NCBI RefSeq assembly: GCF_003852535.1
Contig: NZ_QAJP01000005.1
Location: 268,403 to 332,402 of the forward strand
Origin: Herminiimonas sp. KBW02
Lineage (GTDB): Bacteria > Pseudomonadota > Gammaproteobacteria > Burkholderiales > Burkholderiaceae_D
Direction of reading: 5' to 3'
Length of the DNA stretch: 64,000 nucleotides
The stretch's first letter is position 1. Each line of letters starts with the position of its first letter. This document shows positions 16,400 through 38,293 of the stretch, in pieces. Below the pieces are notes generated by a model. It did no database searches, was not told the DNA's origin, and saw only the letters and a program-made list of their open reading frames with translations. A program made the position numbers and the translations under genes.

Positions 16400-16900
16400 A
16401 TGACTGCGCAATACAAAATCCCCGAGTCAGTACTGGTGGTCATCCATACCGCCGAGATGGAAGTCTTGCTGATAGAGCGCGCTGACCGTCCGGGTTTCTG
16501 GCAATCGGTGACCGGCTCCAAGGATGCGCCAGACGAACTCTTGCTGGAAACCGCTGTCAGAGAAGTGGCTGAGGAAACGGGTATTGTTGTGCAGAATCTA
16601 TCTGAGCCTGCGCTGATGACTGCCGCATCTGCCATCGTTCCCCTGGAAAATTTACAGGACTGGCAACTTTCCAACGTTTATGAAATCTATCCTGTGTGGC
16701 GCCATCGCTATGCACCAGGCGTGACGCGTAATACCGAGCATGTGTTTGGATTGCGGGTTCCGCGTGCGATACCGATAGTGCTGGCACCGCGCGAGCATCT
16801 GAATTTTATTTGGTTGCCGCATCGAGAGGCTGCTGACAGGTGTTTCTCTTCGTCGAATGCCGAAGCGATTTTGCAACTCCCCATGCACATGAATATTTAA
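16400..16900 (+). CDS. nudB: Dihydroneopterin triphosphate diphosphatase (Nudix, NudB)
   Basis: 166 residues. NudB removes pyrophosphate from dihydroneopterin triphosphate in folate synthesis. The Nudix box spans about residues 40-64 (GSKDAPDELLLETAVREVAE then ETG) with one residue more than the canonical G-x5-E-x7-REUxEExGU spacing. The flanks (PESVLVVIHT, LIERADRPGFWQSVTG, WRHRYAPGVTRNTEHVFGL) match NudB. Position after aspS is the same as in other beta- and gammaproteobacteria. Confidence 0.9.
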   Translation: MTAQYKIPESVLVVIHTAEMEVLLIERADRPGFWQSVTGSKDAPDELLLETAVREVAEETGIVVQNLSEPALMTAASAIVPLENLQDWQLSNVYEIYPVWRHRYAPGVTRNTEHVFGLRVPRAIPIVLAPREHLNFIWLPHREAADRCFSSSNAEAILQLPMHMNI

Positions 16901-28524: not shown

Positions 28525-29463
28525 ATGACAGCTATCCGTTTTTCCGATCAGCGACAGCACGTACTTATAACCGGTGCGACTGGTTTTGTTGGACAGTTAC
28601 TGGTGCGCGCATTGCTCGCTGATGGCCACGTAGTGACAGTGCTGACGCGTAATCCGAAGAAGGCGGCATGGATGTTCAATGGGGCAGTACGCTGTATCGA
28701 GCGTCTGAATGAGATAGCGCCGACAGAACATGTCGATGTGATTATTAATCTGGCTGGCGCGCGCATTCTTGGACCGCGCTGGACTGCAGCGCGTCAGCAA
28801 GTGCTACGCGACAGTCGGGTGGCATTTACTGAGAGATTGGTTGAGTGGATAGGGGGCATGCAGCATAAGCCGCGCTTGATGCTGTCGGCCTCTGCAATCG
28901 GTTATTACGGCGTGCAGGAGCAAGGTGATTTGAGCGTGTTGAGTGAGGATGCACCACCGCAAGCGATATTCATGTCGCAGCTATGTCAGGACTGGGAACA
29001 CGCGGCACAGGGGGCGCGACGCTATGGTGTCGAAGCGATTTGTATGCGCTTCGGTCTGGTACTTGGCAAGGGCGGTGCGTTTCCGATGATGGCTTTGCCA
29101 ATAAAACTAGGACTAGGTGGGCCGCTGGGAGGTGGCCGGCAAATCCTGTCGTGGATACATGTACACGATCTGTTGCGCGGTATTGCACATTTAATGAATC
29201 GTCCGGATGCAGTGAGCCGACCTGCAAGTTATAACTTCACCGCACCTGAACAGCCCACACAAGCACAGTTCTCTCAGGCAGCGGCTCGTAGGCTGGGGCG
29301 GCCATCATTTTTCCCGACACCGGCCATGCCGATGCGGTTTCTGCTGGGCGAGCAATCCGACTTGTTACTGAAAGGGCAGCGTGTGGCACCGCGGGCTTTA
29401 CTTAACGAGGGATTTGTTTTCGACTATCCGACGGTGGAGAGTGCAATGAAGGCCTTACTGTAA
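28525..29463 (+). CDS. TIGR01777 family NAD(P)-dependent epimerase-like protein
   Basis: 312 residues from the ATG at 28525 (GGGAG 6 nt upstream); the frame extends to 28435 without conserved residues. The extended-SDR nucleotide motif is ITGATGFVGQLLVRALL (about 13-29). The conserved INLAGARI and SASAIGYYG motifs follow, and a C-terminal DUF1731-like part ends with FVFDYPTVESAMKAL. Homologues include E. coli YfcH and the SulA homologue of cyanobacteria. The substrate is unknown. It is monocistronic, with about 230 bp upstream. Confidence 0.88.
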   Translation: MTAIRFSDQRQHVLITGATGFVGQLLVRALLADGHVVTVLTRNPKKAAWMFNGAVRCIERLNEIAPTEHVDVIINLAGARILGPRWTAARQQVLRDSRVAFTERLVEWIGGMQHKPRLMLSASAIGYYGVQEQGDLSVLSEDAPPQAIFMSQLCQDWEHAAQGARRYGVEAICMRFGLVLGKGGAFPMMALPIKLGLGGPLGGGRQILSWIHVHDLLRGIAHLMNRPDAVSRPASYNFTAPEQPTQAQFSQAAARRLGRPSFFPTPAMPMRFLLGEQSDLLLKGQRVAPRALLNEGFVFDYPTVESAMKALL

Positions 29464-29602
29464 GCCGGACGCAGATTTAATCGCGAGGATTTTGCGTCCA
29501 ACCAGTGTCCGCTTTGAATCGAAAGCGGACATTTAAATGTCTCACGAAGTTATTCTTTATCTCAGTTCTATTCTCTATTTGCGCTGACACTACCAGTGCC
29601 AC

Positions 29603-29617
29603 GCACCCAAGCAGTGC
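29603..29617 (+). promoter_or_regulatory. NtrC-like enhancer site
   Basis: GCACC-N5-AGTGC fits the NtrC consensus GCACY-N5-RGTGC without mismatch. It lies 104 bp upstream of the sigma-54 -24 box, a usual distance for an enhancer. More GTGC/GCAC half-sites surround it (29596-29630). Confidence 0.6.
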
Positions 29618-29720
29618 ACTAACGCACCACAGCGACCCCCTCCGCCTGCATCCGGCGCAATCCCCCGTCTCTCTCTGAACACAGTCAGCAATTTGTCGAC
29701 TATTTGTCGGGAAATCTTAG

Positions 29721-29736
29721 TGGCACAGACTTTGCT
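29721..29736 (+). promoter_or_regulatory. Sigma-54 promoter of the importer operon
   Basis: TGGCAC, five bases, then TTGCT match the -24/-12 consensus TGGCAC-N5-TTGCW at every defined position. The expected start is near 29747. Confidence 0.85.
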
Positions 29737-29750
29737 ATGACGTAGTTAAG

Positions 29751-29762
29751 CTTGTACACAAG
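29751..29762. promoter_or_regulatory. Candidate GntR operator, copy 1
   Basis: CTTGTACACAAG has arms CTTGT and ACAAG around two bases and fits the FCD-type GntR pattern TNGT-N2-ACNA. It covers about +4 to +15 of the sigma-54 start. A matching box lies at the same distance in the atzF promoter, next to a GntR gene. Confidence 0.6.
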
Positions 29763-29836
29763 AAGGTATTCTAATTACCGATCTGGTGTTGGCAGGCCGA
29801 ATGCGCGCTTACTCGTCAACTTAATAAGGATCAGCC

Positions 29837-30784
29837 ATGCACCCACGCAGAAAATTTATTGCCTCCCTGATTGCAGCATCGTTTGTCTGTGCCGCCGCAT
29901 CTACATCAGCACTGGCAGCGGATCAGGTGATCCGTGTCGGTACACTTAAACTGATGCATGGCATCACGCCTTACTTCTACGATAAGTTCACCCCGCCGGG
30001 CTACAAGATAGAAGTGATCCCGTTTGAAACACCGACCGACGGCAAGAATGCGGTCGTGACCAGGTCGGTTGATTTTGGTACTTACGGCCTGGCAGCAGCG
30101 ACGCTGGGTGCGGCAGCAGGTGAACCGGTCGTGATCGTCGCCGCACAGTGCAATCGCGGCATGGCAGTGGTTGCACGTGCTGACAGCAAGATCGCATCCA
30201 TCAAGGACTTGAAAGGCCAGCGCGTCGGCATCCTGCCAGGTTCGACACAGGAAGTGGTGATCCTCGATCGCCTGAAACAGGAAGGCATGACCGTCAAGGA
30301 TATCAAGCCTGTGCGCGTCTCTTTCAGTGAAATGGCTTCCGCTCTGGAGCGTAATGATATCGATGCCTTCGTCGGTGCAGAACCCGGCCCATCCATCAGC
30401 GTCAGCCGCGGCATAGGCAAGATAGTTGAGTACCCGTATTCGACTCCGACCGGCACCGTGAATATGGTCATGACCACGCATGCAGACAATCTGAAAAACA
30501 AGCAGGAACTGATCAAGGTTTTCCTGAAGGTCCATCGTCAGGCTACCGAGTACGCGATGGCGAATCGCGGCGCCTTCGTCGAGATGTCGGAGCAAAAGCT
30601 GGGCTTGCCTGCCAAGGTTGTGGAACTGGCTGCACCTAACGTCGAACTGACCTGGAAACTCGATGATGAATGGATCAAGCGCGCCAAGTACTACGGTTCG
30701 CAAATGCTGGATAAAAAGCAAATCCGCCAGTTGCCCGATTACGGCAAGTTCATTGATGCCAGCTTCAATCAACAAGTGAAGTAA
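29837..30784 (+). CDS. ABC transporter substrate-binding protein (SsuA/TauA/ThiY-like)
   Basis: A 315-residue protein with an Arg-rich signal peptide (MHPRRKFIASLIAASF, cleavage near ALAA, residue 30). The fold is that of COG0715 (nitrate/sulfonate/taurine/pyrimidine) binding proteins, with NAVVTRSVDFGTYGLAAATL and LKGQRVGILPGSTQEVVILDRL typical. It binds a small, probably nitrogen-containing solute in the periplasm. The sigma-54/NtrC control region suggests a nitrogen source; nothing in the sequence names it. It is first of the importer operon. Confidence 0.88.
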   Translation: MHPRRKFIASLIAASFVCAAASTSALAADQVIRVGTLKLMHGITPYFYDKFTPPGYKIEVIPFETPTDGKNAVVTRSVDFGTYGLAAATLGAAAGEPVVIVAAQCNRGMAVVARADSKIASIKDLKGQRVGILPGSTQEVVILDRLKQEGMTVKDIKPVRVSFSEMASALERNDIDAFVGAEPGPSISVSRGIGKIVEYPYSTPTGTVNMVMTTHADNLKNKQELIKVFLKVHRQATEYAMANRGAFVEMSEQKLGLPAKVVELAAPNVELTWKLDDEWIKRAKYYGSQMLDKKQIRQLPDYGKFIDASFNQQVK

Positions 30785-30840
30785 GCATTACGTATAGCGG
30801 CAGCAAGTATCTAGCTTAGTTTTATCTGGAAGGATTTATC

Positions 30841-31671
30841 GTGGAACAAACCGTCGAGTTACCGATGAAAGTTGTCAGGCCCGAGTTGTGGCCGCGTATC
30901 AAGCGTAGCCTGACACCGTTGATAGTGCCCTTGTTGTTGCTGTTGGGCTGGCATGTGGGTGTCAAGGCGTCAGGTACGCAGTTGATTCCGCTGCCCAAGG
31001 ACGTCGGCCTGATGTTGTATGACTTCGCGTTCGGCGGTATCTACGATGATGCCTTCAGCGAAACCTTGCCGCTGCATTTGTGGAAATCGGTCACGCGCGT
31101 CTACGGTGGTTTCTTCGCCGCCGCGCTGGTCGGTATTCCACTTGGCTTGCTGATCGGCCGTATCAAGGTAATCCGTGAGTTGCTGGATCCGACCTTGCAG
31201 TTGCTGCGTCCGGTACCGGTGACTGCATGGTTGCCGCTGTCGATGATTTTCTTTGGCATCGGCCCCAACGCAGCGATCTTTCTGGTGTTCCTCGGTGCGT
31301 TTTACCCGATTGTTTTTAATACGACTTTTGGCGTGAAGGCAGTTGATAACCGTTTGTTTGAAGCTGCGCTGATGCTGGGCTGTAACGGCTCATCGCTGTT
31401 CCGCCAGGTAGTGCTGCCTGCTGCGATGCCGTCCATCCTGAATGGTTTGCGTCTGGGTCATGGTTTTGCGTGGATCCTGATCGTGGTCGGTGAGATGACA
31501 GGTGTGCCTGAAGGTCTGGGCGCGGTGATTATGGATGGTCGCATGTTGTCGCGTACCGATCTGGTGATTGCCGGCATGGTCGTGATCGGCATTGTTGGTT
31601 ACAGCACGGATCGCATCCTGGTCGCGATCAACAATTATTTACTCAAATGGAGCCCGCAACATCATGTCTGA
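30841..31671 (+). CDS. ABC transporter permease (SsuC-like)
   Basis: 276 residues from a GTG at 30841, 8 nt after a GGAAGGA site. About six transmembrane helices are visible. The EAA coupling loop is FEAALMLGCNGSSLFRQVVLPAAMPSILNG (about 177-206). It is the BPD_transp_1 domain of the nitrate/sulfonate/taurine family. The stop overlaps the ATPase start by 8 nt. Confidence 0.9.
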   Translation: MEQTVELPMKVVRPELWPRIKRSLTPLIVPLLLLLGWHVGVKASGTQLIPLPKDVGLMLYDFAFGGIYDDAFSETLPLHLWKSVTRVYGGFFAAALVGIPLGLLIGRIKVIRELLDPTLQLLRPVPVTAWLPLSMIFFGIGPNAAIFLVFLGAFYPIVFNTTFGVKAVDNRLFEAALMLGCNGSSLFRQVVLPAAMPSILNGLRLGHGFAWILIVVGEMTGVPEGLGAVIMDGRMLSRTDLVIAGMVVIGIVGYSTDRILVAINNYLLKWSPQHHV

Positions 31672-32461
31672 TACTTACTCCGAACGCCGTCCTTTACCGG
31701 CGATAGATATCAAAGGCGTCAGCAAGGTTTTTTCGATAGGCGGACAAACCGTGCAGGCTTTGCGTGAAGTCAACCTGACCATTAACAAGGGTGAGTTCGT
31801 GTGCCTGATCGGTGCTTCCGGTTGCGGTAAATCGACGCTGTTGCGCATCATGGCAGGATTTGAAACGACTTCTTCCGGTAGCGCGAATATGTATGGCATG
31901 CCCATCGACGGACCGAGTCCGGAGCGCGGCATGGTGTTCCAGGATTACGGCTTGTTCCCGTGGCTGACCGTGAAGGAAAACATAGGCTTCGGTCAGCGCC
32001 AGCGCAACCTGCCCAAGGCCAAACTGGAAGAGTTATCGGCCTACTACACCGATATGGTGGGCCTGACCAAGTTTGCCAATTACTATCCGGGGCAGTTGTC
32101 CGGCGGTATGAAGCAGCGTGTGGCGATTGCTCGTGTGTTGGCGAACGATTGTGAAGTCTTGCTGATGGATGAACCGTTTGGCGCACTGGATGCGTTGACA
32201 CGTGAAAAGCTGCAACAGGATTTGCTGGAAATCTGGGAACGTACCAAGGTGACGGTCGTGTTTGTCACGCATGCGGTGGAGGAGGCTGTGATGCTGTCGG
32301 ATCGCGTGGTGGTGATGACTGCAGGTCCGGGCCGTATCGAAGAAGACATCAAGCTGGAGCTGGCGCGTCCACGTGATATTACTGCGGTTGAGTTTAATGA
32401 AATCCGGCGCGATATTACCCAGTATTTGACCAGTCACGTGTCGACCAAAATCGCAGCCTGA
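31664..32461 (+). CDS. ABC transporter ATP-binding protein (SsuB/TauB-like)
   Basis: 265 residues from the ATG at 31664, which overlaps the permease stop; the frame upstream to 31592 lies inside the permease gene. Walker A GASGCGKST (about 44-52), FQDYGLFPW Q-loop, signature LSGGMKQRVAIARVL (about 142-156), Walker B VLLMDEPFGALDAL and THAVEEAVMLSDRVVVM are all intact. It energises the importer formed with the two preceding genes. Confidence 0.93.
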   Translation: MSDTYSERRPLPAIDIKGVSKVFSIGGQTVQALREVNLTINKGEFVCLIGASGCGKSTLLRIMAGFETTSSGSANMYGMPIDGPSPERGMVFQDYGLFPWLTVKENIGFGQRQRNLPKAKLEELSAYYTDMVGLTKFANYYPGQLSGGMKQRVAIARVLANDCEVLLMDEPFGALDALTREKLQQDLLEIWERTKVTVVFVTHAVEEAVMLSDRVVVMTAGPGRIEEDIKLELARPRDITAVEFNEIRRDITQYLTSHVSTKIAA

Positions 32462-32485
32462 TATTGGCAGCAAAATAGTCGTAAA

Positions 32486-32533
32486 GGCGGAAATTCGCGC
32501 TACCATGGCACAGGATTTCCGCCTATGCGGAAA
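32486..32533 (+). promoter_or_regulatory. Mutually exclusive hairpins between the importer and the hydrolase
   Basis: Segment 1, GGCGGAAAT (32486-32494), is fully complementary to segment 2, ATTTCCGCC (32515-32523). Segment 2 can instead pair with segment 3, GCGGAAA (32527-32533), over a CTAT loop. The two folds exclude each other, as in attenuators. No T tract follows segment 3. Confidence 0.45.
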
Positions 32534-32566
32534 AGTAGCCAAATACAATAAAAACGTGACTCCGCT

Positions 32567-33388
32567 ATGCATTCGATATATCACGGCATGGATCAGGCCG
32601 CCCTGGACGCCGGTTACAACAACTCGCTGGCAGTCAAGGACAGTCCGGCCATATTGAAAGATTTTGATCAGCGCAGTGCGGCCCTGCGTGCCGAGTACGG
32701 GCAGCGACTGGACTTGCGCTATGGGCCGGCCGAGCGCAATCGTATCGATTACTTTGCAGGCAGCAAGCCGGGGCCGTTGCTGGTGTTTATCCATGGCGGT
32801 TACTGGCAAATGCGGGCCAAGGAAACGTTCAGCTTCCTTGCTGCGGGACCATTGGCGCATGGCATGCATGTCGCGCTGGTCGGTTATACGCTGGCACCGG
32901 ATGCGACGCTGACGCAAATTGTGACGGAGGTAAGGGCTGGTATCGCCTGGTTGCGGCAGCATGCCGGAGAGTTTGGCGGCGACGTTGAACGCATCGTCGT
33001 ATCCGGCTGGTCTGCAGGCGGACACCTGACTGCCTTATGCGTTGACGAACCCGGCGTGATCGGTGGTGTAGCCATCAGCGGCATTTATGATCTGGAGCCG
33101 ATACGTCTGTGCTACCTGAATAATAAATTGCAACTGAGTGCGGCGGAAGAGAAGGAACTTAGTCCTTTGTTGCTGCCGCTCAGTCCGCGCCCGTTGACGC
33201 TGATGTATGGCTCGGACGAGTTAGCCGAGTTGCAGCGTCAGTCCGAGCAGTTCGGTGCGGCGCGCAATGCCTTGCCGGGTGCGCTGGTGCCGCTGGCGCA
33301 GCGCAATCACTTTACTATCCTCAATGAACTGGCTGCGAAAGATGGGGCGATTACGCGTGAAGTATGCGCCATCGCCGGAGTCGCTTAA
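32567..33388 (+). CDS. Alpha/beta hydrolase (kynurenine-formamidase-like esterase/amidase)
   Basis: A 273-residue alpha/beta hydrolase. The oxyanion motif HGGYW (about 66-70) and nucleophile elbow GWSAGGH (about 147-153, Ser 149) are those of the formamidase/arylesterase branch. The catalytic Asp is probably in YGSDELAEL, and the His in QRNHFTI (about 247). It lies 105 bp after the importer ATPase and likely belongs to its operon. If so, it may hydrolyse an ester or amide of the imported compound. The true substrate is not known. Confidence 0.82.
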   Translation: MHSIYHGMDQAALDAGYNNSLAVKDSPAILKDFDQRSAALRAEYGQRLDLRYGPAERNRIDYFAGSKPGPLLVFIHGGYWQMRAKETFSFLAAGPLAHGMHVALVGYTLAPDATLTQIVTEVRAGIAWLRQHAGEFGGDVERIVVSGWSAGGHLTALCVDEPGVIGGVAISGIYDLEPIRLCYLNNKLQLSAAEEKELSPLLLPLSPRPLTLMYGSDELAELQRQSEQFGAARNALPGALVPLAQRNHFTILNELAAKDGAITREVCAIAGVA

Positions 33389-34374
33389 TTCGCTGTGCCT
33401 GCCATCGTTGCGTCGGAGTGGAAGTGCTGGCGGTAGTCGCTCGGTCCTATGCCCAGTCGTTTCGAGAAGATGCGGCGCAGCGTAGCTGCATTCGTCAGTC
33501 CGCAGCGACGGGCGATTTCACTCAGGCCGAGATCGGTTGATTCCAGATAACGACGTGCCGCATCGATGCGCGCATCGTTGACGAAGTTCATCAGTGTTAA
33601 GCCGGTTTCCTGTTTGAACACGCGCGAAAGATTACGCGCACTCATTTGCATTTCATCAGCGATGCTGAGCAAGGTGTGTTCAACGTTGAGATTGTTGAGT
33701 ACATAGTTCTGTACTGCGGCAACCGGTGAGTCGTTCTTTACCTGGACTTCCAGCAGCGGGCTGAATTGTGATTGCCCGCCAGCGCGGCGCAGGTAAACGA
33801 TCAGGTACTTGGCGACATCCAGTGCCATTTGTTTGCCGAAATCTTCTTCTATTAACGCCAGCGACAAATCGATGCCCGCTGTTACGCCAGCCGTGGTGTA
33901 GAGGCTGTCATCTTTCACATAAATCCGGTCGGGTTCTACCGTCGCCTTGCGGAACATGGCCGCCAGGCGTGCCGCATCCATCCAGTGCGTGGTGACGGTT
34001 TTGCCATTGATCATGCCTGCCGCACCGAGTGCGAATACCCCGTTGCAGATCGCGCCTATACGACGGCAGCTTTCGCCTTGCGCTGCCAGCCAGTCGGTCA
34101 GGGTGGTGTCTTCCAGGATATCGAATACTCCGAGTCCGCCCGGCACGATCAGCGTATCGAAGTGTGGACAGGGGTCGAAGATGGTGCGATCCGGCATGAC
34201 GGTCAGGCCGCTGGAAGACTGGATAGGCCCGCGCGTAGTGGCGATGGTCAGGATTTCATATTCGCATTCACCATTGCTGAGTACTTTGACCTCGGCGAAG
34301 GCGTCGCCGGGCGCAGCGATGTCCAGCATCTGGAAGCGGGGGAAGACGACGAGGCCTATGGTGATTTTGCGCAT
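33385..34374 (-). CDS. GlxA-type transcriptional regulator (DJ-1/PfpI + AraC domains)
   Basis: 329 residues. The N-terminal glutamine-amidotransferase-like domain (about 1-190) contains DTLIVPGGLGVFDIL and AICNGVFALGAAGMINGKTVTTHW. The C-terminal AraC/XylS DNA-binding domain (about 215-320) has two helix-turn-helix motifs. These fit regulators of amino-acid and quaternary-amine catabolism (GbdR, ArgR, CdhR). It converges on the hydrolase with a 4-nt overlap. The usual sensor-like cysteine is conserved in the CNG motif. Its target is unknown. Confidence 0.9.
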   Translation of the reverse strand: MRKITIGLVVFPRFQMLDIAAPGDAFAEVKVLSNGECEYEILTIATTRGPIQSSSGLTVMPDRTIFDPCPHFDTLIVPGGLGVFDILEDTTLTDWLAAQGESCRRIGAICNGVFALGAAGMINGKTVTTHWMDAARLAAMFRKATVEPDRIYVKDDSLYTTAGVTAGIDLSLALIEEDFGKQMALDVAKYLIVYLRRAGGQSQFSPLLEVQVKNDSPVAAVQNYVLNNLNVEHTLLSIADEMQMSARNLSRVFKQETGLTLMNFVNDARIDAARRYLESTDLGLSEIARRCGLTNAATLRRIFSKRLGIGPSDYRQHFHSDATMAGTAN

Positions 34375-34492
34375 GAAAAGTGTCGGGCAGGAAAATTCGG
34401 GATGAGTAAAAATCTGTGCAAATCATACCTGATGCCGGCCGCCAGTTGCATATAGACAGATCCGGTGCCCAGGCGCTGCTTTGGCAGGATAG

Positions 34493-34508
34493 CCGCCATG
34501 TTTGGCGG
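34493..34508. promoter_or_regulatory. Short inverted repeat in the glxA-like/M24 divergent gap
   Basis: CCGCCA (34493-34498) and TGGCGG (34503-34508) flank TGTT, about 112 bp before the M24 start. It may be an operator. The rest of the 246-bp gap shows nothing clear. Confidence 0.25.
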
Positions 34509-34620
34509 ATTAAGACCGCAGACGATGGTTTTGCTTTTTGCTCTTGCTTTGCATACTGGATACGGGTTCAGCGCACCTCATTTCGGGGTGTGCGACTTCT
34601 TATTCAATCAGGAGAGCAAG

Positions 34621-35307
34621 ATGGAAGCAGCAATGTCCAGTGCCGAGCGCGTAGGCCCGGCTTTTTCAGTCGACGGCATGTTGCAGGCGCGTGCCAAAAC
34701 ACGGGAGGCGATACGCACCATCGCCGCGCTGGTGCGACCGGGTATGGTGGAAGAAGATGCGGTCGATATGGCCAAGCGCACGCTGATCGCTTCCGGCCTG
34801 GATCTGACCTGGCATCCGACGCGCATACGCTTTGGCCGGAATACCATGAAGGCGATGAAACAGGCTTCCGAGCCGGGCATCGTGCTACAGGAAAACGATA
34901 TTTTCTTTATCGATATGGCGCCGCGTTTTGCCGCATGGGAAGGCGACGGCGGTGCATCCTTCGTAGTTGGTCAGAACGCAGAGTACGCACGTTGTGCAGC
35001 TGATGCCGAAGAAATTTTTCATGCCGTGCGCAAGGTCTGGCTGACGGAACAAGCGAGCGGGCAAGAACTGTATCGCTACGCTGAACAGCAAGCGCGGCAG
35101 CGTGGCTGGGAATTGAACTTCGACCTGCCTGGTCACCGTGTATCAGATTTTCCGCATGCAGCCATACACACGGGTTCACTGGCTGATTTTGACGCGACCC
35201 CATCCGCCATGCGCTGGATACTGGAAATCCATATTCGTCATCCCGAAAAGCAGTTTGGCGCCTTTTTTGAAGACATGCTGCTGGATGACAGCAGTTATCA
35301 AACCTAA
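34621..35307 (+). CDS. Minimal M24 (pita-bread) metallopeptidase-fold protein
   Basis: 228 residues from the ATG at 34621, chosen because AGGAG lies 7 nt upstream; the frame continues to 34465 but the extra 52 residues look random. All five metal ligands of the creatinase/prolidase fold are present: D98 (FIDMAP), D109 (EGDGG), H162 (PGHRVSD), E192 (LEIHI) and E207 (FFEDML). The N-terminal creatinase domain is absent, as in methionine aminopeptidase. The substrate could be a proline peptide or a creatine-like N-compound. It converges on the gntR gene. Confidence 0.78.
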   Translation: MEAAMSSAERVGPAFSVDGMLQARAKTREAIRTIAALVRPGMVEEDAVDMAKRTLIASGLDLTWHPTRIRFGRNTMKAMKQASEPGIVLQENDIFFIDMAPRFAAWEGDGGASFVVGQNAEYARCAADAEEIFHAVRKVWLTEQASGQELYRYAEQQARQRGWELNFDLPGHRVSDFPHAAIHTGSLADFDATPSAMRWILEIHIRHPEKQFGAFFEDMLLDDSSYQT

Positions 35308-35332
35308 GCCGACCGCTGCTTCATCTTCAACT

Positions 35333-36040
35333 TCACGCCGAGAGTTGCGCTGCCAGTCGCGCCTGATGCAACATCTGTATCGTGATTTTCTTCACTTCGG
35401 ATTGACTCAGGGCGATGTGGGCGCGCAGCAGGTCTTTGGCCTGACAGGTGCGCTTTTCGATGATGGCACGCAGGATGTGCGCATGCTCGGTATAGGTGAC
35501 TTCTATGCGCATTTCCTTGGTGAACTCGAGACGACGGATGACGCGTATGCGTTCGGTGATTTCATGATGTATGCGTGCCATCTCGATGTTGCCACTGGCT
35601 TCCACCAATTGTTCGTGGAAGCGTTCATCATGTACCGAGAGGGTAGGTACATCAGTAATGCGTTCATGTTCCGGTACGAACCAGAGCGCCGCCAGTTCCT
35701 GCAATAGGGGCGGTGTTTCCGGCATTGCGCACAATTGTTCGACAGCAGCACATTCGAGCACGCTGCGCACGTCGTACAGTTGCTCAAACATCTGGAAGTC
35801 GAAGGGCCGGATTTGCCAGCCTGCCTTGTGCAGCACTTCCACATAGCCTTCACGCTGCAAACGAAATAATGCTTCGCGTACCGGCGTACGGCTCATTTGC
35901 AGGCGCTCACTCATTTCGTTTTCGCTGAAGCGGTCACCGGGCAGGAAGTGGAAATCAAAGATATCCGCTTTCAGCCGGGTGTAGGCTTGCGAGGCGAGGC
36001 TGTCCGGCAGGACTTTGGCAAATTTAAGCTTGGGGATCAT
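35333..36040 (-). CDS. GntR family regulator (FCD/FadR subfamily)
   Basis: 235 residues starting at the ATG at 36040, which has GGA 7 nt upstream; an ATG four codons earlier (36052) touches the GGA. The winged helix is at about 10-75 (ADIFDFHFLPGDRFSENEMS, then QMSRTPVREALFRLQREGY). An all-helical FCD effector domain (about 85-220) has the usual Asp/His ligands (DVRSVLE, HDERFHEQL, EHAHILRAI). FCD regulators sense small carboxylates. It is 20 nt downstream of atzF in the same operon and probably binds the CTTGTAYACAW boxes at atzF and at the importer. Confidence 0.9.
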   Translation of the reverse strand: MIPKLKFAKVLPDSLASQAYTRLKADIFDFHFLPGDRFSENEMSERLQMSRTPVREALFRLQREGYVEVLHKAGWQIRPFDFQMFEQLYDVRSVLECAAVEQLCAMPETPPLLQELAALWFVPEHERITDVPTLSVHDERFHEQLVEASGNIEMARIHHEITERIRVIRRLEFTKEMRIEVTYTEHAHILRAIIEKRTCQAKDLLRAHIALSQSEVKKITIQMLHQARLAAQLSA

Positions 36041-36060
36041 GGTGCATTCCAAAAGTCAGT

Positions 36061-37860
36061 TCAGGCTGCCTTGTTGCAATATGCGCGCCAGCCACCGTAT
36101 GCGGTAATGTCTTGCGCACTCTCCAGTGCATAGGGTTCACAGATGAAACCTTTCACCAGTCTGCCATCTGCCAGTTCCAGCGTACCTATACCCAGCGGTG
36201 ACGGTACGCCCGCGACAAAGGAGCCGAAAGCGGTGAGCGGGATATCCCATAGCTCCACCGTAATTGCCGCGCCATCCTTGCTGCGCGCCAGGCCGGGTTT
36301 GGGTGGCACGGTTTGCGCCAGTGCATACAGGCGATAGTTGCTGGCGGTTAGGGTGCTTTCCACCAGCATGGCTTTGCGTTCAGTCAGCTCACGATTCAGC
36401 GGCATGCCGGTCAGGTGAGCGCCGACGACGGCGATGCGCAGATGGCCTGCGGGTACTTCGTCCTTGGTCGGTGTCGCAGCTTCTGCGCTGTGGTAAGGCA
36501 GGCCGGTAGCACCGCGTGGCAAGCCGGTTTGCGCCTGCCAGCGTTTGCCGTATGCAGCCAATGCGTGATCTGACCAGGCCGGGCCTATCAGCGTCAGTCC
36601 GAACGGCAGGCCGTCGCTGCGCAGATTGGCCGGTACTGCCAGCGCGCACCAGTTCAGCAGATTGACGTAGTTGGTGTACTTGCCCATGTGGCTGTTGAGG
36701 CGCACCGGATCGGCTGCGACATCGGCGATTTTGTAATGCGTCGGCGCGGTCGGTACCAGCAAGGCATCGACCGAGGCCATGATTTTGTCGGCAGCGCGCT
36801 TGAGGTCGGCCAGCTTGTATTGCGCATTGAAGGTATCGGTCGCCGAGAATTCCCGGGCGCGGAAGATGATGTTGCGTACGACCGGGTGGATGGCATCCGC
36901 ATGTTCTTCGGCAAAGGCTGCGATGGCCGCATAGCGTTCGGCTACCCATGGCCCATCATAGAGCAGGGCGGTAACCTGATCGAATAGCGAGAAGTCGAGC
37001 GGGATACATTCCGCGCCGCTGGCGCGTACCGCATCCAGTGCTTTCGCATAAGCGGCTTCGGCGACGGCATCGCCATAAAACTCAGGTACAGCCGGGATGC
37101 CGAAACGCGGTTTGGTCGGCAGCGTTGTTGCCACTTGTTCCGGACGCGCACGTGAATAAGCATCTGCGTCATCGTAGCCCGCGGCCTGCGAGTAGACCAG
37201 TTCCGCATCGGCGACGGTGGTCGCGAAGATGGAAACGCAATCCAGTGTGCGGCATGCAGGTACCACGCCGCGGCCGCTGAGTGAGCCTACCGTCGGCTTT
37301 AGTCCCACGATATTGTTGAGACCTGCCGGTACACGACCCGAACCTGCGGTGTCGGTGCCGAGTGAAAACGGTACCAGGCCGCGCGCGACTACTGATGCTG
37401 AACCGGAGCTGGAGCCGCCGGAAACATATTCTGCATCGAAGGTATTCGGCACTACGCCGTAAGGGGAGCGGATACCGACCAGGCCGGTAGCAAACTGATC
37501 GAGATTGGTTTTGCCGATGACGATCGCACCTGCATCCAGCAGGCGCTGCACCACGGTCGCATGTTGTTCTGCGATGTAGGCAAATTCGGGGCAGGCTGCA
37601 GTGGTGCGTATGCCTGCCACATCGATATTGTCCTTGGCTGCAAACGGCACGCCGTACAGAGGCAGCTTGCTCAACTCCGGATCGGCTGCACGCCTGGCTT
37701 CCAGCGCCTGTAATTGTGTTGCCAGATAGGGCTGATCTATCAGCGTGATCCAGGCGACATCATCCTGCGCCATGCTAGCCAGCAAGCCCGGCAGTAGAGA
37801 TGCCGGTGTTGCGCCGTCGCGGTAAGCGTTTTGCCAATCAACTATAGTCCATCCCAACAT
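36061..37860 (-). CDS. atzF: Allophanate hydrolase (AtzF type, stand-alone)
   Basis: 599 residues from the ATG at 37860, with GAGGG 7 nt upstream. The frame remains open to 38124, but that part has no family similarity. The amidase domain carries the Ser-cisSer-Lys triad K76 (AAKDNID), S150 (GGSSSGS) and S174 (DTAGSGRVP), matching K91/S165/S189 of Pseudomonas AtzF. The C-terminal allophanate-hydrolase domain (about 475-599) has VGAHLTGMPLN, LGIGTLEL and ITAYGGWRAY. The enzyme turns allophanate into ammonia and CO2. No urea carboxylase, biuret or cyanurate hydrolase gene is in the window. Confidence 0.93.
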   Translation of the reverse strand: MLGWTIVDWQNAYRDGATPASLLPGLLASMAQDDVAWITLIDQPYLATQLQALEARRAADPELSKLPLYGVPFAAKDNIDVAGIRTTAACPEFAYIAEQHATVVQRLLDAGAIVIGKTNLDQFATGLVGIRSPYGVVPNTFDAEYVSGGSSSGSASVVARGLVPFSLGTDTAGSGRVPAGLNNIVGLKPTVGSLSGRGVVPACRTLDCVSIFATTVADAELVYSQAAGYDDADAYSRARPEQVATTLPTKPRFGIPAVPEFYGDAVAEAAYAKALDAVRASGAECIPLDFSLFDQVTALLYDGPWVAERYAAIAAFAEEHADAIHPVVRNIIFRAREFSATDTFNAQYKLADLKRAADKIMASVDALLVPTAPTHYKIADVAADPVRLNSHMGKYTNYVNLLNWCALAVPANLRSDGLPFGLTLIGPAWSDHALAAYGKRWQAQTGLPRGATGLPYHSAEAATPTKDEVPAGHLRIAVVGAHLTGMPLNRELTERKAMLVESTLTASNYRLYALAQTVPPKPGLARSKDGAAITVELWDIPLTAFGSFVAGVPSPLGIGTLELADGRLVKGFICEPYALESAQDITAYGGWRAYCNKAA

Positions 37861-37873
37861 TTTGAATACCCTC

Positions 37874-37891
37874 ATGTATACAAGTTTGTAT
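37874..37891. promoter_or_regulatory. Candidate GntR operator, copy 2 (atzF promoter)
   Basis: On the - strand CTTGTATACAT (37884 to 37874) matches copy 1 (CTTGTACACAAG) in nine of the first eleven positions. It overlaps a second dyad, ATACAA-GT-TTGTAT (37878-37891). It begins 15 nt past the -12 element, the same offset as copy 1, and abuts the atzF ribosome site. Confidence 0.6.
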
Positions 37892-37898
37892 TTGTTAT

Positions 37899-37914
37899 AG
37901 CATGAGTCATGCCA
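37899..37914 (-). promoter_or_regulatory. Sigma-54-like promoter of atzF-gntR
   Basis: Read on the - strand, TGGCAT-N5-ATGCT keeps the GG and GC doublets at the exact sigma-54 spacing with two mismatches to the consensus. A TATAAC just beyond (37900-37895 on -) could also act as a sigma-70 -10. Confidence 0.6.
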
Positions 37915-38293
37915 GACAAAATTGGCAAGCTTTTGCTCATGGCAGGGCAGATGTATGTACTCTTCCATGTGGCCTGATTCGCCTTGGTGCGGGCGCGCAC
38001 TTTTCGAGTGCGTTTGTGTGTTGCGTACGATAAGCGTGCGCCTTTTCTTCGCAATTTTCCTCCCGATATTCACGGCAAATTTCTTTGTTGTTTTTGCTGA
38101 TCGTCGCGTCACGAAACACATCACTTCTCATAGCAAATTTCATTTTGCTTCACATCGGATTGCATCCTTTTCACGCCTTCGCCGGAATCAGCTATGACAG
38201 AATTTGCGTCGCTGTTCAGCTATAAAAATCAATTAAAAAAATGACGTCGGCTTCATGCCTGCTAACGATTACCCCCATTTCCTGGGAGACTAA
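37915..38293. promoter_or_regulatory. A/T-rich divergent region between atzF and the lactate-type permease
   Basis: No gene is convincing here. It holds an NtrC-like site at 37997-38011 and two direct copies of GCAAATTTC (38073-38081 and 38133-38141), the second within a GCAAA/TTTGC inverted repeat. A TATAAA (38221-38226) may be the permease -10; GGGAG at about 38284 is its ribosome site. Confidence 0.5.
37997..38011. promoter_or_regulatory. NtrC-like enhancer site upstream of atzF
   Basis: GCACT-N5-AGTGC is a perfect dyad that fits GCACY-N5-RGTGC, 83 bp upstream of the atzF sigma-54 -24 box. An outward-facing GGTGC and GCAC pair lies next to it (37986-38000). Confidence 0.55.

Follow-up and report, generated by a model that had tools for sequence, protein, structure and literature searches.

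A promoter architecture shared by an ABC importer operon and the atzF operon of Herminiimonas sp. KBW02 points to a joint nitrogen-scavenging regulon

Introduction

Why would two operons on opposite strands, with promoters 8 kb apart, carry nearly the same set of promoter elements? The question is raised by a 64,000-nucleotide stretch of the genome of Herminiimonas sp. KBW02 (hereafter the window; RefSeq assembly GCF_003852535.1, contig NZ_QAJP01000005.1, positions 268,403 to 332,402 of the forward strand). The importer operon (29837-33388, forward strand) encodes the substrate-binding protein, permease and ATPase of an ATP-binding cassette (ABC) importer, followed by an alpha/beta hydrolase. 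The atzF operon (37860-35333, reverse strand) encodes allophanate hydrolase and then a GntR-family protein with an FCD domain. AtzF uses up allophanate. A sequence-only reading of the window had claimed that NtrC-type sites, a sigma-54 element and a GntR-type box recur in one arrangement at both promoters, and had proposed a regulon that is activated under nitrogen limitation and repressed by the GntR/FCD protein. The analysis reported here confirms that the shared promoter is real and beyond chance. Activation by NtrC and sigma-54 under nitrogen limitation, combined with repression by the FCD-type GntR of the atzF operon in a single two-operon regulon, is the probable explanation on the comparative evidence.

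Promoter elements in the window

All six motifs of the sequence-only reading are present where it had placed them. The importer promoter (forward strand) begins with an NtrC-type enhancer site, GCACC-N5-AGTGC (GCACCCAAGCAGTGC, 29603..29617), which agrees with the consensus at 11 of 12 positions, a score reached by none of 500 shuffles. It is followed by a sigma-54 -24/-12 element, TGGCAC-N5-TTGCT (TGGCACAGACTTTGCT, 29721..29736), and by a GntR-type operator box, CTTGTACACAAG (29751..29762). On the reverse strand, the atzF promoter repeats this order with GCACT-N5-AGTGC (GCACTCGAAAAGTGC, 37997..38011; 10/12, with 18 of 500 shuffles as good), TGGCAT-N5-ATGCT (TGGCATGACTCATGCT, 37899..37914) and the box CTTGTATACATG (37873..37884), which abuts the likely atzF ribosome-binding site. 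The GG and GC of the -24/-12 elements lie 10 bp apart at both promoters, and each box starts exactly 15 nt after the -12 element (14 nt between), as had been claimed. With the GC of the -12 element numbered -13/-12, both boxes span about +5 to +16; the earlier span of +4 to +15 differs by choice of numbering.

Two further shared elements were absent from the earlier reading. The first is an additional NtrC half-site 21 bp (about two helical turns) 3′ of site 1, which reads GCACC at the importer promoter (29624..29638, forward strand) and GCACCA at the atzF promoter (37976..37990, reverse strand). The second is a GGTATTC just beyond the box, identical in sequence and offset at the two promoters (29765..29771, forward; 37864..37870, reverse). 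The accessible text of PMC4494728 gives the operator consensus of the FadR subfamily as TKGT/ACMA, with a weaker half-site 7-12 nt from the centre. Both window boxes contain these half-sites with a 2-nt GT-AC spacing, the atzF box ending in ACAT, and GGTATTC fits the accessory half-site at 7-12 nt from the box centre. The assignment as a FadR-type GntR box is thus supported.

Frequency of the motif combination

With mismatches allowed, the single motifs are not rare in the window: 95 sigma-54 motifs were observed against 83 expected, 7 boxes against 4.2, and 14 NtrC motifs against 11.3. Their joint occurrence is rare. TGGCAY-N5-WTGCT followed 10-20 nt on by CTTGTAYACA occurs twice in the 3.64 Mb genome, and the reversed pattern does not occur at all. 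A wider pattern, TGGC-N8-TGC-N8..20-YTTGTAYACAWG, was scanned in 294 genomes of the family and gave 21 sites in 12 of them, with none for the reversed control. Traced through the fetched loci, 11 of these sites lie ahead of the importer and 10 ahead of atzF, although two of the stretches (G194 and G114) hold merely the first importer gene or two. The atzF promoter of another genome (G140) has the same architecture with a box ending in ATA and was therefore missed by the strict pattern. Across the window and 53 fetched loci, three strict thresholds returned 41, 31 and 24 matches against 0 for the reversed patterns, and a lax threshold returned 66 against 18.

Conservation and spacing

Eleven importer promoters, the window's included, could be aligned. 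GCAC-N7-GTGC, the second GCACC (20-22 bp on from site 1), the TGGCAC and TTGC of the -24/-12 element and all 12 bases of the box are kept in every one of them, and GGTRTT after the box in 10 of the 11. These elements form fixed islands, around which the spacers differ in both length and letters. The atzF promoters of the five closest genomes (window included) likewise keep the GCAC and GTGC of NtrC site 1, the half-site GCACCA, all 16 bases of the -24/-12 element and CTTGTATACAT of the box, and the sequence that separates the NtrC sites from -24 varies. The six atzF promoters that come next share an unchanged TGGCA...TGCT and CTTGTACACAAGAAGG, and no NtrC site aligns upstream of them. The expectation that orthologous promoters would conserve all elements therefore holds for the importers and the five closest atzF promoters; it does not extend to NtrC sites at the next six or to the 15-nt offset in general.

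In each of the five closest genomes, both promoters leave 14 nt between the -12 element and the box. This gap is 8-9 or 13-14 nt at the importer and atzF promoters of genus-mates and of one further genome (G037, whose promoter fell outside the first stretch fetched and was located in a second, L150), 13 nt in Pantoea, 15 nt on a Klebsiella plasmid and 2 nt in Cupriavidus. The lax scan also yields gaps of -2, 18, 20 and 21 nt, some of which are second readings of one site. A fixed 15-nt offset was accordingly rejected as a rule of this architecture: it holds in the five closest genomes and some others, and gaps at importer and atzF promoters range from 2 to 15 nt. Among relatives the box falls at about -8 to +17, at or just beyond the start. 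Roadblock repression just past the start, as first proposed, is possible in the window, and occlusion or blocked melting fits equally well. Because the box slides over the start, interference with initiation would be favoured over a strictly downstream roadblock.

NtrC and sigma-54 control

The genome encodes one NtrC above the family cut-off among the 8 matches listed. Its own nitrogen genes served as controls. Upstream of glnA, NtrC sites scoring 10/12 lie 144 and 115 bp above the -24 element; the operon leading to one amtB copy has sites at 130 and 100 bp, and another amtB copy has one 110 bp above its -24. The window sites compare well with these, scoring 11/12 at about 118 bp for the importer and 10/12 at about 97 bp for atzF. 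NtrC sites some 100-150 bp upstream were found in the window, at 10 further importers and at the four next-closest atzF promoters. The sites were judged solely next to promoters because the genome-wide NtrC pattern barely exceeds its reversed control (27 against 21).

A test with 500 shuffles was applied to 14 importer and 23 other promoters (the lax-scan matches in L073 and a second one in L054 were left out, and the score for the L041 atzF promoter is that of its second site, tied with the first). In 11 close importer orthologs the NtrC score was equalled by 0-35 of the 500 shuffles, and by at most 7 in eight of them. The corresponding figures were 8-31 for the five close atzF promoters, 0, 7, 29, 99, 117 and 144 for the next six, and 7-14 for three remoter importers (L169, L152 and L153). 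On these comparisons NtrC control appears well supported at the importers, fairly supported at the close atzF promoters and unproven at more distant promoters. The claim of a nitrogen-limitation promoter is thus upheld for the window, where an NtrC is encoded and the sites resemble those of glnA and two of three amtB copies in score and distance. The NtrC elements themselves stand at importers and close atzF promoters; at atzF promoters further away, most cannot be demonstrated.

Elsewhere in the genome (L102, contig C11, 1946-1980), an NtrC-type palindrome lies 34 bp before TGGCATCGATATTGCT; both precede an open reading frame that resembles, by eye, a PAS-type signalling protein.

Pairing of the two operons in relatives

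In four genomes (G140, G150, G172 and G100) the importer and atzF operons are adjacent, as in the window. Five genus-mates (G022, G080, G099, G114 and G183) carry an orthologous importer (substrate-binding protein 85-87% identical) and atzF on separate contigs, with the promoter at both and atzF within a few kb of the GntR gene. The presence of the promoter on both unlinked operons in these five relatives points to one trans-acting regulon. The idea of a joint importer, hydrolase and atzF regulon is thereby supported, as it is by the confinement of the pattern to the two operons. In G022 (L065) the gene order is atzF, urea carboxylase, gntR, urtA, urtB, with the sigma-54 element and box ahead of atzF; four other loci (L058, L062, L066 and L068) have the same atzF-gntR spacing and promoter. 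Three further genus-mates (G057, G127 and G161) yielded, at the cut-offs used, neither importer nor atzF, and neither the GntR gene nor the pattern.

Proposed mechanism and alternative explanations

The motifs and how well they are conserved can be read in the sequences, as can their restriction to these operons across the genomes scanned, their pairing where the operons are unlinked and their association with one GntR clade. Beyond that, we infer that NtrC and GntR bind, that GntR represses and does not activate, and the nature of the inducer and of the imported compound. The two operons, as one regulon, would take up a nitrogen compound and degrade it by way of allophanate. When nitrogen is limiting, phosphorylated NtrC on the paired upstream sites would drive sigma-54 polymerase. 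At the start of each promoter, the FCD-type GntR from the atzF operon would bind the CTTGTAYACAWG box; as long as substrate is absent, it would keep both promoters shut by preventing melting or clearance. Its release would be triggered by a pathway compound, probably a carboxylate such as allophanate. Since gntR follows atzF in the same operon, GntR would also limit its own synthesis.

Several observations weigh against this reading. The third amtB copy of the genome shows no NtrC arrangement like that of the other two, and matches of 10/12 also occur away from promoters in the control stretches; such a score by itself is weak. The best NtrC match is equalled by at least 87 of 500 shuffles at all 12 remoter promoters scored and at three of the six next-closest atzF promoters. 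One genome (G194) has the importer promoter but yielded neither GntR nor atzF; its assembly is fragmented, with 350 contigs and a completeness of 90%. A GntR match was obtained in 58 genomes, the window's own among them, and for 40 of these one locus each was fetched around the homolog; at the lax threshold 20 of the 40 loci carry a sigma-54 element with a box and 20 do not; over all these sequences the lax scan gives 41 matches against 8 reversed. A search of 399 genomes of the order found three importers outside the family, of which one (L151) has a box without a sigma-54 element and two (L152 and L153) have a sigma-54 element without a box at strict thresholds. Elsewhere in the window's own genome (L100, contig C14, 1993-2026), the boxes ATTGTATACATG and CTTGTATGCAAG lie 22 bp apart before an unrelated solute-binding gene. 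A perfect box, CTTGTATACAAG, also occurs about 80 bp ahead of the start of a paralogous FCD-GntR gene beside mdcA, so another FCD-GntR could bind the window box.

That last observation is an argument for a different reader of the box, in which one or more other FCD-GntRs, such as the mdcA-side protein, would act at both promoters and the GntR of the atzF operon would have a different target. The two proteins are 30% identical with a similar helix, which makes cross-recognition possible, and according to the accessible text of PMC4494728 a GT/AC core with 2-nt spacing is common to several FadR-type regulators. However, the sigma-54 element with the box was found solely at importer and atzF operons in the 294 genomes, and gntR genes of the clade, in several arrangements, are part of these operons or adjoin them, which leaves this explanation improbable, if somewhat ahead of the others. 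Slightly less probable still is that GntR activates, or both activates and represses, the two promoters. Its sign is not fixed by sequence, and the box slides by several nucleotides between relatives; yet a position of about -8 to +17 would be unusual for an activator of a sigma-54 promoter served by NtrC, and in the documented parallel at hutU, HutC acts as a repressor, with a footprint that overlaps the sigma-54 site (PMC12977541, accessible text).

The palindrome might instead work in the RNA leader, as a hairpin or in translational control at the atzF start, an option suggested by the atzF box abutting the likely ribosome-binding site and by a predicted leader of about 28 nt. Against it, the importer box lies 74 nt from the start codon, and in the Cupriavidus relative the box begins 2 nt past the -12 element, so that about two thirds of it would lie upstream of the start and remain untranscribed, which counts against an RNA element. 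A search of 29400-30000 for an RNA element in the importer leader returned no Rfam match, and that candidate was rejected; a role in RNA is very unlikely overall. We give the same very low probability to the notion that the shared elements are mere remnants of a duplicated ancestral promoter, with no joint regulation today. Around the elements, the two window promoters do have TGCTATRAC and GGTATTC in common as well, but across 11 importer promoters the islands stay fixed while the spacers change, which suggests ongoing selection. Control of both operons by NtrC, sigma-54 and the FCD-GntR of the atzF operon remains our preferred explanation.

The GntR clade and its plasmid copies

The GntR protein of the atzF operon (35333..36052, reverse strand; second gene of the operon and proposed repressor of both promoters) has a GntR helix-turn-helix and an FCD domain, both above cut-off, and a 98% match in Herminiimonas contaminans. 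In an alignment of ten members, SRTPxR is invariant in the region of the recognition helix, as are D141, H145, H189 and H211. These four are candidate FCD metal ligands and may correspond to the metal-binding Asp/His set of the FadR/FCD subfamily, whose effectors are small carboxylates. The paralog with the perfect box (L099, contig C15, 1850-2200) lies beside mdcA, the gene for malonate decarboxylase alpha; it is presumably of the MdcY type and autoregulated through a site with the same core operator. The solute-binding gene behind the paired boxes in L100 appears, by eye, to be of the tripartite-transporter (Bug) type, and its product has no NCBIfam match at the cut-off used.

Other genera, and plasmids of Gammaproteobacteria, show the same link between promoter and GntR clade. 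A Klebsiella plasmid has gntR in divergent orientation to an importer-atzF unit, and TGGCATATTAATTGCT-N15-CTTGTGCACAAG-ATGGTATCC lies ahead of the importer; this locus (L169, 5766-11477) belongs to pHS08204, typed as conjugative. The importer protein is held by 27 plasmid records, from Klebsiella, Enterobacter, Raoultella, Leclercia, Citrobacter and one Acinetobacter. One of these 27 was read, together with three of the 88 records holding the GntR (one being the same Klebsiella record). A Pantoea plasmid is annotated with atzF-uca-gntR-urtABCDE and has the sigma-54 element and box. In the fetched stretches of the three importers from outside the family (L151, L152 and L153), no GntR homolog was found.

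Three AtzF loci (L044, L047 and L069) also hold an AtzE-type amidase, confirmed as AtzE for L047, and an ABC importer. At the lax threshold, their promoters (near 16823, 16947 and 17133, reverse strand) have a sigma-54 element and, after it, GntR-type boxes that lie close together or overlap, which read TTGTACTCAAACTAGTATACAAG in L044. A dipeptide-transport/gamma-glutamyltranspeptidase locus (L074) carries the sigma-54 element and box at the same threshold. These loci give hints, not proof, of a clade of sigma-54-promoter repressors. More speculatively, the members of this one FCD-GntR clade may be allophanate-sensing, substrate-specific repressors of NtrC/sigma-54 promoters for nitrogen sources that yield allophanate, in Beta- and Gammaproteobacteria and on conjugative plasmids, a generalization we hold only tentatively. 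If it were true, allophanate, which is common to the urea and importer routes, would let one regulator serve different uptake systems. The homologs on Enterobacterales plasmids indicate that the module is able to travel.

Gene content and possible substrate

The importer operon (forward strand) comprises genes for an NMT1/SsuA-like substrate-binding protein (29837..30784), a permease (30841..31671), an ATPase (31664..32461) and, as its final gene, the alpha/beta hydrolase (32567..33388). The allophanate hydrolase gene atzF (36061..37860, reverse strand) scores above the cut-off of TIGR02713. Between the two operons lie a gene for a GlxA-type AraC/DJ-1 regulator (33385-34374) and an M24 peptidase-like gene (34465-35307), homologs of which are likewise found near the importer in some genus-mates (L146 and L147).

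SsuA/nitrate-type transporters are the nearest families of the importer, with matches under their curated cut-offs. For the hydrolase, 'Lipase 1' comes nearest and the next solved structures include a kynurenine formamidase; the hydrolase gene follows the importer genes in the eight closest loci long enough to show it (L038-L041 and L144-L147). No hydrolase homolog was found in the fetched stretches of the Klebsiella plasmid and of L151. Among 56 plasmid records with hydrolase homologs, two regions were read (Indioceanicola and Paracoccus), and neither atzF nor GntR was listed beside the homolog in them. In one relative outside the family (L153, 3958-10090), importer and hydrolase adjoin cyanuric acid amidohydrolase (AtzD) and an AtzE-type amidase, neighbours that hint at the class of substrate. 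The imported substrate is probably a ureide, a biuret-like compound or a carbamate-like compound. The regulon provides a precise, testable setting for this uncharacterised importer and hydrolase, and an inducer common to both operons would be a strong lead to the substrate.

Comparison with known systems

The cyanuric acid pathway atzDEF ends in AtzF, and its regulator AtzR is an activator of the LysR type. The window shares AtzF with this pathway, and one relative's importer-hydrolase cluster also contains AtzD and AtzE. None of the ten proteins scanned from the window is AtzD, and no search for it was made in the genome; nothing on AtzR combined with NtrC was found in the open-access literature.

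A closer likeness is to the urea amidolyase operon atzF-uca-gntR-urtABCDE. A GntR gene beside atzF-uca and urt genes is reported in the accessible text of one genome paper (PMC13296017), and in relatives of the window a homologous GntR gene lies by atzF behind the same sigma-54 element and box. In the window, by contrast, the GntR gene has only atzF as its partner, and the box is also present at a second operon. No urea carboxylase above the family cut-off was found in the window's genome. The proposed regulon also suggests that this genome, with atzF and without a recognisable urea carboxylase, has retained the urea amidolyase regulator or put it to another use.

Nitrogen control of such genes itself has precedents. 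In the accessible texts, atzF is predicted in NtrC regulons of Rhizobiales (Leyn 2016, PMC5343134), and urea carboxylase and related transporter genes are down in an ntrC mutant of B. cenocepacia H111 (PMC5491218). The importer differs from those of these regulons, for which the same texts do not mention a GntR box or repressor (PMC5343134, PMC5491218). The novelty suggested by the sequence-only reading is thus partial: no description of a joint regulon of importer, hydrolase and atzF under an FCD-GntR was found in the accessible open-access literature, whereas atzF has already been predicted under NtrC, and a GntR repressor on an NtrBC/sigma-54 promoter is documented.

The latter case is HutC at hutU of Pseudomonas, where, in the accessible text, the footprint of a GntR-family repressor (HutC subfamily) overlaps the sigma-54 site of a catabolic operon that NtrBC activates for nitrogen (PMC12977541). 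Judged by sequence alone, the window promoters are alike in placing a GntR-type box at the start of a sigma-54 promoter under NtrC control. HutC binds a TGTA/TACA-type palindrome with halves 2 nt apart, according to the same text, whereas TGTA and YACA abut in the window box. The window protein has an FCD domain rather than the HutC-type (UTRA) effector domain, its targets would be the importer, hydrolase and atzF, and its box lies just past the predicted start. The proposed regulon would extend the logic of HutC at hutU to another GntR subfamily and to the metabolism of allophanate.

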